A DNA stretch of 49,821 bases from a virus. The notes under the pieces are model-generated. The model saw only the letters and a program-made list of their open reading frames with translations. It did no database searches and had not been told where the DNA came from. The position numbers and the translations under genes are program-made. The stretch covers positions 1 through 49,821 of the IMG/VR virus record IMGVR_UViG_3300031521_000099; one strand, given 5' to 3'. Of this stretch, positions 4,215 to 48,935 are shown in pieces; position 1 is the first letter of the stretch; each line of letters begins with the position of its first letter.

Positions 4215-4487
4215 ATGCAAAAACTACCTAAAGACTGGATAACTTTAAGAGGTTTTATAGTATTGTGCTTGCAAGAGTTTGAATGTATATCAAACCAATA
4301 CAAACCATGGTTATTTTTAAGTTTGATTATTGATAAAATAGTTTATTTAATTGAATTTGTTTTTGGAATGATTGTATCTACACCATTAATAATTTATTGT
4401 ATTATTAAAATAACGGTAATATTAATAAGCATATTAAGCCAAAAAGTAAACCTAAACAAACAAGAGAATAAAAAGGAAGTGCGATAA
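4215..4487 (+). CDS. membrane protein
   Basis: A 90-residue protein with two adjacent hydrophobic stretches, about residues 30-55 and 55-78, separated by a short polar patch, and a Lys/Asn-rich C-terminus. Likely an inner-membrane protein of unknown function. It begins one base after the resolvase stop and shares its final base with the next start, so it belongs to the same operon. Confidence 0.6.
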   Translation: MQKLPKDWITLRGFIVLCLQEFECISNQYKPWLFLSLIIDKIVYLIEFVFGMIVSTPLIIYCIIKITVILISILSQKVNLNKQENKKEVR

Positions 4488-5209
4488 TGAAAGTTAAAGT
4501 AAAAATTGTTAATAAAGATATTGACCAAAACAGAGAATTTGAAGTATTGGAAGAACATGCAAATTGTTATATATTAAAATATGATGATAAGTTTTTAACA
4601 GTAAAAAAGGAGTGGTGCGAAGTGATTGAAGAAAGCAAAATAAAAACAAAGACAATTAGAATTACTAAAGATTTAAATGTTACTAAGTTAATGAAAGGTG
4701 ATACATTGACTGCTGAAATTGAAATTGGAGAAAGATACATTTCCATTAGAAGTGGTATTTTAAAAGGTTTTTCTATTAATAAAGATTGTTTTGAATATAT
4801 TGAAGATGAACAAATTAAACAAGGGTTTACCGTTGAATTTAAAAAATATTGCAGGAATTGTAAGTTTGATCCTGATTTTTGCAAGAAGAACAATAGTATG
4901 TGTATTTACTTTGAAAATTGGGAACATAATGAAAAATTTAATAAAATGGTTAATGATTTAGATAATAATAATATTGGATCAGCAAAAGAAGCAACCCATT
5001 ACATGCAAGGAGAATATGAACCAATACTAGTAATGCAAGATAAATTAACAAAAGAACAATTTGAAGGATTTTTACTTGGTAATGTAATTAAATATTCATT
5101 AAGGATGAATCATAAATTGCAAAATAAAAGTGATGCAGGTAAATGTAGACAATATAGTGAGTGGTTAAATACTATTATTAATGGTAATAAAATAGTATTG
5201 GAGCGTTAA
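4487..5209 (+). CDS. DUF3310-domain protein with an unusual N-terminal extension
   Basis: A 240-residue protein. The C-terminal 80 residues match the phage DUF3310 pattern: HYMQGEYEPI, then LTKEQFEGFLLGNVIKYSLR and a KCRQYSEWLNTII end. The N-terminal about 110 residues look like two small beta modules, and a Cys cluster (YCRNCKF, FCKK, MCIYF, about residues 124-142) lies between. DUF3310 proteins are usually much shorter, so this is a fusion. It sits in the early/replication operon. Function of the family is unknown. Confidence 0.68.
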   Translation: MKVKVKIVNKDIDQNREFEVLEEHANCYILKYDDKFLTVKKEWCEVIEESKIKTKTIRITKDLNVTKLMKGDTLTAEIEIGERYISIRSGILKGFSINKDCFEYIEDEQIKQGFTVEFKKYCRNCKFDPDFCKKNNSMCIYFENWEHNEKFNKMVNDLDNNNIGSAKEATHYMQGEYEPILVMQDKLTKEQFEGFLLGNVIKYSLRMNHKLQNKSDAGKCRQYSEWLNTIINGNKIVLER

Positions 5210-5210
5210 C

Positions 5211-5372
5211 ATGGATAGTGTAATAAATACTTATCAGTTTATTATTCAGCAATTATTAAATGAGTTAGATCGTAAAGATATTGTGGTTAAGTATTTTAAA
5301 GAAAATGGTAATCAGAGTGAAAAAGACATCGTAGAAAGGTTGTTATATAGTGAGCAGATTTTTAAAACCTAG
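5211..5372 (+). CDS. small hypothetical protein overlapped by an HNH gene
   Basis: A 53-residue helical protein starting one base after the DUF3310 stop. Its last 23 bases overlap the start of the HNH gene, so its original C-terminus may have been changed when that mobile gene inserted. I do not recognise the family. Confidence 0.5.
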   Translation: MDSVINTYQFIIQQLLNELDRKDIVVKYFKENGNQSEKDIVERLLYSEQIFKT

Positions 5373-5982
5373 ATATTTTGATTTTAAAAATAAAAAAATT
5401 GGAAGATTGACTGTTATTGATTTGAAAAGTAGCGGAAGTGATGGAACATTTTGGAATTGTATATGTGATTGCGGAAACTTAATAATTGTTAGATCAACAA
5501 ATTTAAAGAAAAATACAAAAAGTTGTGGATGTTTAAGGAAAGAAACAAAGTCTAATTTAAAGCATGGGCTATATGGAACTCCTTCATATAAAATTTGGAA
5601 TAAAATGATTCAAAGATGTACTAATGAAAAAGAATTAAATTATAGTGATTATGGTAAAAAAGGAATAAAAGTATGCGATGAATGGTTAATATCTTTTGAA
5701 AGTTTTTACAAAGATATGGGAGAACGACCAAATAAATTAACTTTAGATAGAATTGATAACAATAAAGGATATTTTAAAGAAAATTGCAGATGGGCTACAA
5801 TGACTGAACAACAAAATAATAGAACAAATAATGTAAAATTTGAATTCAACGGTAAAAGTAAAACATTACCTGAATGGAGCAGAATTATTGGTATTAAAAC
5901 AGGAACTTTAAGATCTAGAATATCTAGCGGGTGGGATATACAAAAAGCTTTATCAACTATAGCAAGAAGTTATAATAAATAA
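5350..5982 (+). CDS. HNH-family homing endonuclease with N-terminal zinc motif
   Basis: A 210-residue free-standing mobile nuclease. N-terminal C-x-C-x-C-G and SCGCL cysteines form a probable zinc site (residues about 37-60). The core YKIWNKMIQRC, YSDYGKKGIKVCDEW, LTLDRIDNNKGY and NCRWAT is the phage homing-endonuclease HNH region. The C-terminus (LPEWSRIIGIKTGTLRSRI) is a helix-turn-helix for DNA contact. It starts with GTG 5350 inside the end of the preceding gene. Close relatives are at 33220 and 48191 in this window. Confidence 0.82.
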   Translation: MSRFLKPRYFDFKNKKIGRLTVIDLKSSGSDGTFWNCICDCGNLIIVRSTNLKKNTKSCGCLRKETKSNLKHGLYGTPSYKIWNKMIQRCTNEKELNYSDYGKKGIKVCDEWLISFESFYKDMGERPNKLTLDRIDNNKGYFKENCRWATMTEQQNNRTNNVKFEFNGKSKTLPEWSRIIGIKTGTLRSRISSGWDIQKALSTIARSYNK

Positions 5983-6195: not shown

Positions 6196-6204
6196 TGTTA
6201 TAAT
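6196..6204 (+). promoter_or_regulatory. extended -10 promoter TGTTATAAT
   Basis: TGTTATAAT directly follows the terminator and precedes the terminase genes. No good -35 is present at 17 bases. Same class as nine other sites in the window. Confidence 0.6.
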
Positions 6205-6411
6205 AGGTATAATAAGCGGTAATAAAATAGTAAAAACGTCTATCTAAATAACTATAATCGCTACACTGTATAGTTATATGAAGGAAGTTGAATTGATTAT
6301 CAATGAGAATATAATGTTTATAATGGTTTAAAGGTTGTATTGAGAATTTAAATTTACTACAGGTGAAAACAACTATATTCATATAATGTAAAAAAATAAA
6401 AATTATTAAAA

Positions 6412-46856: not shown

Positions 46857-47009
46857 ATGATTAAATTGTTATGTATTAAATGTAAAGCAATTTGGTATAC
46901 TGCAAATACATTAAAAGAACAATTATGCCAATGTTGCAATAATGTTTTAATTGAAGTAGATATTAGCGGAGATATGAACGATAAAAATAACGGAGGTAAC
47001 GACAAATGA
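46857..47009 (+). CDS. small zinc-ribbon-like protein
   Basis: A 50-residue protein with LLCIKCK and LCQCCNN, four to five Cys forming a zinc ribbon like those of Com or rubredoxin-type proteins, then an acidic Asn-rich tail. GGGAG ribosome site. ATGA overlap with the endolysin gene. Confidence 0.6.
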   Translation: MIKLLCIKCKAIWYTANTLKEQLCQCCNNVLIEVDISGDMNDKNNGGNDK

Positions 47010-47581
47010 CAAATGAAGAATTAGCAAAAGAGATTGCATTAGGAATTATTAATACTGGTGTGGAGGGTGGATATGATAACGTATGTTGCTCTACTGCAGG
47101 AGATTATCCATGCATGGGTGTTTCGTCATGGGAAGGAATAAATGGTCGTGGCGATACATTATTGTGCTATATAGATGGATGCCAAAAATTCATAGGACGT
47201 ACTTATTCAGATATTATAGATAGTGGAGAAAGGCAAGAGTTAAAAAGTTTGTTAAACTCAGAACAGGGACAATTAGCACAGCAACAAATATTAACTCAAG
47301 ATTGCCTTGAATTATATGTACCGTTTCTCAATGAAGTTTATAACTTAGATGATACAAAGTGTTTTATTTACGCAGGTATTTGGTGTCCTACTAGTCATTA
47401 TGTAGTAATGAAGTTCTTAAAAAATAGACAGGATAATTATAATATTAGAGATTTAGAAGTAATTAATAATCTATTTAAAGAACGGTATTACATTGTTGCT
47501 GACGTAGGTGAACAATATGCGGATGGGTATGCAAACAGAGCAAATAATACATATGAATATGTTAATTCGTTGAACGTGTAA
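47006..47581 (+). CDS. putative endolysin (lysozyme-like)
   Basis: A 191-residue protein without signal peptide. GVEGGYDNVCC near residue 16 gives a Glu in the usual lysozyme/transglycosylase position, followed by MGVSSWEGINGRGDTLL and a helical body with SEQGQLAQQQILTQDC and YAGIWCPTSHYVV. Similar phage proteins occupy the lysin slot. Place after holin-like genes and before the spanin-like pair supports the call. The cut bond is not known. Confidence 0.65.
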   Translation: MTNEELAKEIALGIINTGVEGGYDNVCCSTAGDYPCMGVSSWEGINGRGDTLLCYIDGCQKFIGRTYSDIIDSGERQELKSLLNSEQGQLAQQQILTQDCLELYVPFLNEVYNLDDTKCFIYAGIWCPTSHYVVMKFLKNRQDNYNIRDLEVINNLFKERYYIVADVGEQYADGYANRANNTYEYVNSLNV

Positions 47582-47592
47582 AGGAGAAAGCA

Positions 47593-47988
47593 GTGTTGAA
47601 TAAAATTAAGGAGTTTGCATCAAATGAAAAAATCAATATTATCTTTGTTATTTTGTTGCTTGTTGGTCTTGTCGTTGCTTGGGACTTGTTCGGCAACAGC
47701 AATGTATCAGATAACAGCCGAGGAATTGAATCAATCCAAACAGAATATCAACGAGATCAGGAACGAAGTCGATCTATTACAACAGGACTTGGAACTGTCG
47801 AACAGCGAATTGACGGAAGTATTAAAACAGTTGAGCGAATCGAAATTAGAAACAAGTCAATTGAAAGTTCAATTACAACAGTCATTGAAAGAAATAAAAC
47901 AGATGAAAGCAGAATCGAAAGAATTAACCGACTCCTTGACAAAGAACAACAAAGACTTGAAAGAATACAGCAATCATGTGAAAAATGA
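47593..47988 (+). CDS. inner-membrane spanin-like protein (Rz-type)
   Basis: About 130 residues: N-terminal membrane anchor (INIIFVILLLVGLVVAW, residues about 15-32) and a long periplasmic-type coiled coil rich in Glu, Arg and Ile up to the C-terminus. This is the layout of an i-spanin. GTG 47593 or TTG 47596 behind AAGGAG (47581-47586). From 47624 on it shares DNA with a second gene in the +1 frame. Confidence 0.65.
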   Translation: MLNKIKEFASNEKINIIFVILLLVGLVVAWDLFGNSNVSDNSRGIESIQTEYQRDQERSRSITTGLGTVEQRIDGSIKTVERIEIRNKSIESSITTVIERNKTDESRIERINRLLDKEQQRLERIQQSCEK

Positions 47989-48058
47989 TATTGTTAAATT
48001 AAAGGCAGAAAGGGATATTATTGCTATTGCTTTCATTGCTAAATTATTAATAAAATAG
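47624..48058 (+). CDS. exported spanin-like protein overlapping in the +1 frame
   Basis: A 144-residue protein with a Sec signal (MKKSILSLLFCCLLVLSLL), a Cys that could be lipidated (LLGTC, an imperfect lipobox), a coiled coil (about 30-120) and a short hydrophobic C-terminus (RDIIAIAFIAKLLIK). ATG 47624 has AAGGAG (47608-47613). Could be an o-spanin, or a u-spanin if the C-terminus enters the membrane. A second version of its last 18 codons exists at 48823. Confidence 0.65.
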   Translation: MKKSILSLLFCCLLVLSLLGTCSATAMYQITAEELNQSKQNINEIRNEVDLLQQDLELSNSELTEVLKQLSESKLETSQLKVQLQQSLKEIKQMKAESKELTDSLTKNNKDLKEYSNHVKNDIVKLKAERDIIAIAFIAKLLIK

Positions 48059-48064
48059 TATAAT
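48036..48064 (+). promoter_or_regulatory. possible promoter TTGCTA-17-TATAAT
   Basis: TTGCTA 48036-48041 and TATAAT 48059-48064 at the end of the spanin-like gene; would transcribe the HNH gene. Confidence 0.45.
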
Positions 48065-48118
48065 TATATGTATAGGGATAGCCGTGGATTAATTACCCAC
48101 CGCGATAAAGAGATTTCG

Positions 48119-48185
48119 CACTCCTTCCCTTTAATTTAAAAAATAAATATGCGAAGAAATATACTACTGAGCGAAGGAGTGGTTT
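48119..48185 (+). promoter_or_regulatory. hairpin hiding the HNH ribosome site
   Basis: CACTCCTTC (48119-48127) pairs perfectly over 9 bases with GAAGGAGTG (48173-48181), the ribosome site of the HNH gene; GTTTTTATT follows, so it can also terminate. Within the loop no full promoter is clear. Confidence 0.65.
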
Positions 48186-48190
48186 TTATT

Positions 48191-48823
48191 ATGCCTAAAT
48201 TTATAGATTTAACCAACAAAAAATTTAATAGATTAACTGTTTTAAAGATTAACGGAAAGAAAAATAATCATTATGAATGGAAATGCAAATGTTGTTGTGG
48301 AAACATAGTAATTGTTAGTGGCGGAAATTTGTCAAGTGGTCATACTAATTCATGTGGTTGCCTACAAAAAGAACGAGCATATAATTATCAAATTAAACAT
48401 GGAATGACACACACTAACACGTATAACTCTTGGTCAGCAATGATACAAAGATGCAACAACATTAATAATATTAGTTATAATAACTATGGGGGAAAAGGGA
48501 TAAAGGTTTGCGAAGATTGGTATACTGATTTCAATAGTTTTTTAAAAGATATGGGAGAGTGTCCACGTGGAATGTCTATTGATAGAATTTTGGTTAGCGG
48601 AAACTATGAAAAAAACAATTGTAAATGGTCTACAGAAAAAGAACAACAAAATAATAAAACAAACAATGTATTATTATTGTATAAAGGCGAAACAAAAACT
48701 ATTTCAGAATGGTCAGACAAATTATCAATTAAATATACAACTTTATATAGTAGATTATTTGAATATAATTGGTCTATTGAAAAATCTTTTTCTACAAAAG
48801 TTAGATTTAGGAGTAAAAATTAA
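48191..48823 (+). CDS. HNH-family homing endonuclease
   Basis: A 210-residue relative of the gene at 5350. MPKFIDLTNKKFNRLTVLKI, then WKCKCCCGN and SCGCLQK (zinc motif), YNSWSAMIQRCNN, YNNYGGKGIKVCEDW, MSIDRILVSGNY, NCKWSTEKEQQNNK, and a C-terminal HTH (ISEWSDKLSIKYTTLYSRL). ATG 48191 has GAAGGAGTGG; upstream ATG 48149 has none. It has inserted at the end of the spanin-like gene. Confidence 0.82.
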   Translation: MPKFIDLTNKKFNRLTVLKINGKKNNHYEWKCKCCCGNIVIVSGGNLSSGHTNSCGCLQKERAYNYQIKHGMTHTNTYNSWSAMIQRCNNINNISYNNYGGKGIKVCEDWYTDFNSFLKDMGECPRGMSIDRILVSGNYEKNNCKWSTEKEQQNNKTNNVLLLYKGETKTISEWSDKLSIKYTTLYSRLFEYNWSIEKSFSTKVRFRSKN

Positions 48824-48879
48824 AGTTGCAACGTGACATTATCGGAATAGGATTACTATACATGATATTTAAAAAGTAG
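48823..48879 (+). pseudogene. second, displaced 3' end of the spanin-like gene
   Basis: Directly after the HNH stop, 18 codons plus TAG read KLQRDIIGIGLLYMIFKK. The end of the spanin-like gene (48002-48058) reads KAERDIIAIAFIAKLLIK plus TAG: same length, 7 of 18 residues identical, rest mostly conservative. This looks like the original 3' end of the gene, cut off by the HNH insertion. Confidence 0.7.
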
Positions 48880-48906: not shown

Positions 48907-48935
48907 AAACCGCTTACTTAATGTAGGTGGTTTTT
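48907..48935 (+). terminator. terminator of the late operon
   Basis: AAACCGC and GGTGGTTT pair (with wobbles) and are followed by TTT. A second hairpin AACTGTTAA / TTAACAGTT (48881-48905) precedes it. Confidence 0.65.

Follow-up and report, generated by a model that had tools for sequence, protein, structure and literature searches.

A displaced gene end beside an HNH endonuclease gene suggests one-sided homing into the 3′ end of a phage spanin-like gene

Introduction

The viral DNA analysed here (IMG/VR record IMGVR_UViG_3300031521_000099, 49,821 nucleotides; the window) raises the question of why a spanin-like gene should have its coding end twice, once in frame before a gene for an HNH endonuclease and once behind it, cut off from the body of the gene. 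Most known free-standing endonuclease genes are intergenic or divide a gene into two working pieces, as do mobE of Aeh1 in nrdA and mobA of T4 in gene 60, and those of T-even phages have been described with their own promoter and with a hairpin over the ribosome-binding site (PMC2988022). In fungal mitochondria, mobile ORFs (mORFs) in atp6 of Allomyces and in atp6, atp9, cox2 and nad3 of Glomus replace the native C-terminus of their target by a foreign one, and the native C-terminus then lies downstream (PMC3630166).

Results

The target locus

The genes that surround the HNH gene, and the terminator that follows it, are these:

47006..47581, forward strand: probable endolysin, 191 aa; the anchor in the search for relatives
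47593..47988, forward strand: inner-membrane spanin-like gene with a GTG start; it and the next gene overlap in different frames
47624..48058, forward strand: outer-membrane spanin-like lipoprotein gene with lipobox LLGTC; the candidate HNH target, its 3′ end being the putative replacement end
48907..48933, forward strand: intrinsic terminator 3′ of the native spanin end; a similar stretch occurs in L100
49056..49232, forward strand: HTH_17 gene (Pfam HTH_17) directly downstream, 97% identical in L100

The endolysin gave no match in a Pfam scan, and the lysin and spanin proteins gave none as queries against the phage collection; the endolysin shares 82% identity with that of L004 and 79% with that of L005, two phages without the HNH gene. 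The pair that follows is termed spanin-like on the basis of its architecture and of weak profile matches. It is an out-of-frame overlapping pair of the Rz/Rz1 type in which the first protein has a hydrophobic segment at its N-terminus and weak, Rz-like PHROG matches, while the lipoprotein gene was assigned from its ORF, from similarly weak Rz-like PHROG matches and from its relatives. As in the nested Rz/Rz1 genes of the lambda type, a membrane-anchored inner protein and a lipoprotein occupy overlapping frames; the window pair differs from these in its sequence matches, which are weak only, and in the hydrophobic C-terminal end of its lipoprotein. The nested pair is common to L004, L005, L007-L010 and L100, and its coil region is divergent across all relatives. 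The host appears to belong to the Negativicutes, L006 being a Schwartzia relative.

Two homologous ends on either side of the HNH gene

47996..48058, forward strand: tail1, the putative replacement end, KLKAERDIIAIAFIAKLLIK and stop; 60% DNA identity with tail2 and 59% with the tail of L100
48817..48879, forward strand: tail2, the displaced native spanin end, KLKLQRDIIGIGLLYMIFKK and stop; out of frame with the HNH gene
48817..48825, forward strand: right junction AAATTAAAG, where the HNH stop codon and the opening codons of the displaced end overlap one another

Sequence and ORFs confirmed both ends where the preliminary description had placed them, together with the divergence of their DNA. 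Two of its details needed amendment. It had counted 18 codons in each end, but the similarity begins at the shared AAATTAAAG (47996 and 48817), two codons earlier on each side, so that each copy comprises 20 codons plus TAG; and the second end, said to follow the HNH gene with no spacer, does abut that gene but has the HNH stop codon TAA (48821-48823) embedded within it. Tail1 starts shortly after the overlapping gene has ended (stop at 47988). As in the mitochondrial mORFs, a duplicated gene end flanks the endonuclease ORF.

Aligned without gaps, the two tails have a BLOSUM62 score of 41, which none of 200,000 composition shuffles reached. Among 18,776 distinct C-terminal 20-mers of ORFs, the best matches to tail1 were tail2 (41) and the tails of L005 (39), L004 (37) and L100 (37); every match above 24 was a spanin tail, and the next score was 24. 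In a cross-locus null, the per-locus maximum was at least 41 in about 0.07% of 1,500 draws. The likeness of the two tails is not a matter of chance, since shuffles never reach 41 and the only C-termini resembling tail1 are those of spanins.

Relatives without the HNH gene identify the native end

The HNH gene is absent at the same site from L004, L005 and L100. The first two, found through the neighbouring lysin, carry the same nested spanin pair, the gene ending in RLQRDVVIVGIVALLFKK in L004 (tail stretch LQRDVVIVGIVALLFKK) and in KFQRDVLIVGIIAMSFRK in L005 (tail stretch FQRDVLIVGIIAMSFRK); compared with tail2 their tails reach a score of 58, compared with tail1 one of 37-39. L100, found by a spanin profile search, has an uninterrupted spanin gene that ends in KLTFERDIIGIGLLYMIFKK, the last 15 residues of its terminal stretch RDIIGIGLLYMIFKK being identical to those of tail2 (15/15), and this end is followed by the downstream sequence of the window, including the terminator-like stretch and the HTH gene (97%). 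L100 is thus a homologue of the kind that had been named as a check, uninterrupted, HNH-free and with a KLQRDIIGIG-like tail, and it bears out the claim that the original end was pushed downstream: tail2 is the displaced native end, because an HNH-free relative ends in the same way and continues into the same sequence. No HNH-free relative was found in which the tail1 form directly precedes the sequence from 48880.

Over 63 nt, tail2 and the L100 spanin end share 84% DNA identity and 86% amino-acid identity, compared with 59% DNA identity for tail1, so that, as in the mORFs, the displaced copy matches the relatives and the inserted copy diverges. Comparison of the last 16 codons of tail2 with those of L100 shows five synonymous substitutions and no non-synonymous ones, from which it follows that selection on the coding sequence of tail2 was maintained until recently. 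Between tail2 and the body of the spanin gene now lie the HNH gene and its leader, and that body ends instead in the different but homologous tail1.

Tail1 itself is most simply read, from its divergence, as a foreign replacement. A donor in which tail1 is followed by the HNH gene was found neither by spanin profile nor by degenerate peptide pattern; this negative result and the shortness of the tail (20 residues) count against the homing account set out below. A local duplication of the spanin end, with insertion of the HNH gene between the copies and later divergence of one of them, would account for the adjacency of the copies apart from the HNH gene and for their similar length. Such a duplicate made in place predicts a decayed silent copy and a conserved expressed one, and the reverse is seen: the expressed tail1 is divergent, and the silent tail2 is near-identical to L100 with synonymous changes only in its last 16 codons. 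As tail2 stayed coding-constrained while tail1 would have had to drift, and as the three independent cases described below would require the same coincidence, we regard local duplication as quite improbable and favour a foreign origin of tail1.

Mosaicism is common in phages, and phage surveys have reported nuclease genes, homing genes among them, at boundaries of genetic exchange (PMC10448857), so that tail1 might have arrived when two phages recombined in the ordinary way at a gene boundary where the HNH gene happened to be located, its enzyme remaining passive. The lysin of the window is indeed L004-like and the DNA 3′ of the HNH gene L100-like. The N-terminal region of the spanin, however, also matches L100 (83%), so that the locus is L100-like on both sides, and repeated precise replacement of gene ends beside one HNH family is not expected by chance; passive mosaicism is unlikely on these grounds.

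The HNH gene and its leader

48191..48823, forward strand: HNH endonuclease gene, 210 aa; phrog_374, E = 5.5e-73
48036..48064, forward strand: predicted sigma-70-like promoter TTGCTA-17-TATAAT, consensus match 10/12, overlapping the end of tail1
48119..48181, forward strand: predicted long-range hairpin with arms CACTCCTTC and GAAGGAGTG; z = -1.56, weak

The phrog_374 match places the protein in an HNH nuclease family, and it consists of a zinc-finger-like N-terminus, an HNH core and a repeat-like C-terminus. Its start is best set at ATG 48191 rather than at 48149, homologues aligning from there, which leaves a leader of 132 nt behind the intact spanin gene. The promoter possibly serves the HNH gene, and the hairpin arm GAAGGAGTG could cover its Shine-Dalgarno sequence. 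In these predicted elements, in the probable lack of an intron, in its place beside a target gene and in its patchy presence, the gene is similar to the seg and mob genes of T4. Leaders also open the post-lysis operons of L004 (about 5220-5360) and L005 (about 5450-5590), where a hairpin seems to cover a Shine-Dalgarno sequence followed by a T-run; the layout of the window leader (48059-48190) looks similar.

The same measurements bear on a degenerate or unrecognised self-splicing intron that would hold the HNH gene, its splicing returning the native tail2 to the spanin. That tail2 is the native end fits such an arrangement, as does a relative of the HNH gene in L166 that sits between pieces of a DNA polymerase gene. 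However, the HNH gene has 132 nt of non-coding DNA on its 5′ side and 0 nt on its 3′ side, which would not accommodate a group I core, and the first 63 nt of the intron would by chance have to read as a spanin-like end whose stop is aligned as well. Rfam gave no match at the locus, a weak negative because L166, where a match was expected, was missed too. Overall, an intron is highly improbable. The L166 site itself (Escherichia phage PGN829.1, 1492-3100), at which a gene of the same HNH family lies between two DNA polymerase I pieces and no Rfam intron is found, is either a divergent intron or a split gene.

Mirror-image cases at gene starts

Genes of the phrog_374 family were collected from viral contigs, phage records and bacterial genomes (85 copies at 84 loci), and each was searched for an upstream gene's end recurring after the HNH gene and for a downstream gene's start already present before it. 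The preliminary description had proposed looking for the same arrangement at other HNH genes of this family. As regards gene ends, the window remained the only case; the mirror image, a displaced gene start, was found three times. In all three, an upstream truncated head of 18 to 38 codons is followed by the HNH gene, whose 3′ end extends into the start codon of the intact gene. Gene names given here as macrodomain-like and IMPDH/GMP-reductase-like come from annotations of database matches and from reading of the translations rather than from a family scan.

In Xanthomonas phage LucasX (L018), the stranded head (MIVYEGPGNLFECGVQTITCS) has 21 codons and lies before the HNH gene, whose stop codon overlaps the start (ATGA) of the intact macrodomain-like gene, beginning MIIYEGPGDLFSCGMQCITCS. 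An IMPDH/GMP-reductase-like gene is affected in L074 and in a near copy of that locus, L076; the head there has about 29 matching residues, with 73% DNA identity over 90 nt. The case in Lactobacillus phage Lb (L156) concerns SSB: a head of 18 codons, MINRVVLTGRLTKDIELR and stop, precedes the HNH gene, whose end is overlapped by the complete SSB gene, beginning MINNVTLTGRLGKDVELK. The LucasX case is supported by Burkholderia phage FLC9, in which an upstream homologue of LUCX_95 (score 67, modest) is followed directly by the macrodomain gene, with no HNH gene between them; the upstream gene differs in the HNH-free relative of Lb. In both LucasX (35 against 26) and Lb (66 against 59), the stranded head is closer to HNH-free relatives than the replacement head is. 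The null distribution of the head test is fat-tailed (0.8% at scores of 60 and above), probably owing to the likeness of HNH starts across loci, and head cases were for this reason accepted only after each sequence had been read.

Common to the window and the head cases is an HNH gene closely linked to one coding end of an intact neighbour, with a truncated homologous end on its far side; the HNH gene overlaps the start of the intact gene in the head cases and the displaced tail in the window. The HNH genes of the four are placed apart in a family tree whose support is weak in much of its extent.

Several candidates were rejected. Among those for tails, the matching stretch in L053 belongs to the start of a glycosyltransferase-like gene, read out of frame, that in L097 reflects tandem HNH genes with repeated leaders, and the matches in L155 and L083 had low scores. 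Among those for heads, L097 and L023 reflect HNH-like starts and L149 carries two full-length paralogues. Three further HNH copies read after the survey were negative.

Discussion

The evidence makes it probable that an HNH homing gene invaded the 3′ end of the spanin-like gene by one-sided homing and brought the donor's gene end with it. In the recipient, the HNH enzyme would have broken the spanin gene a short way inside the 3′ end of its coding sequence. To the left of the break, repair off the donor's spanin gene would have copied in the donor's tail1 and the HNH gene behind it. To the right, where homology would have been lacking, the end of the HNH gene would have been joined straight onto the broken recipient DNA, and the old tail would have stayed behind as a fossil showing roughly where the cut fell. 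The cut site would be lost on both sides, tail1 having diverged and tail2 missing its left half. The chimeric spanin would stay complete and, with the junction located 3′ of the stop codon that closes the inner frame (47988), both spanin frames would be kept whole. At gene starts, the same HNH family would act in mirror image. From the sequences we infer that the HNH proteins would cut at these places but spare the donor end, and that the chimeric genes would be functional; a functional chimeric spanin with a self-limiting insertion is plausible. The preliminary description had seen here an exact end-replacement. A substitute end is present and the native end is displaced, but the arrangement fits a trace left by one-sided homing better than an insertion complete in itself.

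In the open-access literature, to which the search extended (subscription papers lay outside it), no report of gene-end replacement in phages was found. The layout itself is known from fungal mitochondria; what appears to be new is its occurrence with an HNH gene, in a bacteriophage and at both gene ends. The fungal mORFs share with the window an endonuclease ORF near the 3′ end of a gene, a foreign C-terminus upstream and a displaced native end close to that of a near relative. They differ in that their enzymes are of the LAGLIDADG or GIY-YIG type and act in mitochondria, as against an HNH enzyme and a 20-codon end in a tailed phage, and the mirror-image head replacements of the phage HNH family mark a further difference. 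Unlike mobE of Aeh1 and mobA of T4, the HNH gene of the window leaves its target whole by means of a substitute end. A similar design is found in the HomeR home-and-rescue drive (PMC7968924), in which a nuclease cassette in a 3′ coding end is accompanied by a re-coded restoring end, although HomeR is an engineered Cas9 system in Drosophila, whereas the arrangement in the window is natural and its protection from cutting would follow from the divergence of the end.

Tentatively, and with rather less confidence than in the single event, phrog_374-family HNH genes may regularly spread as natural 'home-and-rescue' units that cut a coding end, bring a diverged, cut-resistant version of it (the 3′ end where the HNH gene lies downstream of its target, the 5′ end where it lies upstream) and leave the original as a fossil marking the event and the approximate cut site. 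The mirror-image cases in three unrelated phages suggest a recurring and little-noticed route by which such genes spread. One-sided homing, if true, would account for the arrival within phage coding sequence of a free-standing homing gene that has neither intron nor intein and yet leaves its target unbroken. A mechanism known from fungal mitochondria would thereby reach bacteriophages, where it would operate at both the starts and the ends of genes, and engineered home-and-rescue drives would have a natural counterpart. A gene-end fossil stranded beside a nuclease gene would serve as a computational signature with which to date homing events, find probable cut sites and spot chimeric genes.

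Further observations at HNH loci

In L053 (3118-3200), the HNH stop codon overlaps the start of the glycosyltransferase-like gene, which is apparently frameshifted near its beginning, and in L097 (1770-3000), a similar GC-rich leader hairpin precedes each of the two tandem HNH genes. In L074 (1708-5193), a GIY-YIG-like ORF, the HNH gene and an intein-like insertion beginning CYSDDTEILTINGWKNFSEI are clustered at one IMPDH/GMP-reductase-like gene.

The window contains a second HNH gene of the same family (5350-5982), which overlaps the end of a short ORF of 53 codons and lies shortly after a DUF3310 gene (4487-5209). On its far side, at 6200-6250, the peptide GIISGNKIV resembles the end of the DUF3310 gene (TIINGNKIVLER); the match (IINGNKIV / IISGNKIV) is too short to be claimed as a displaced end and may be a fossil or due to chance. 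The HNH gene of L003 also adjoins a DUF3310-like gene, and DUF3310 genes may be a preferred neighbourhood of these HNH genes.
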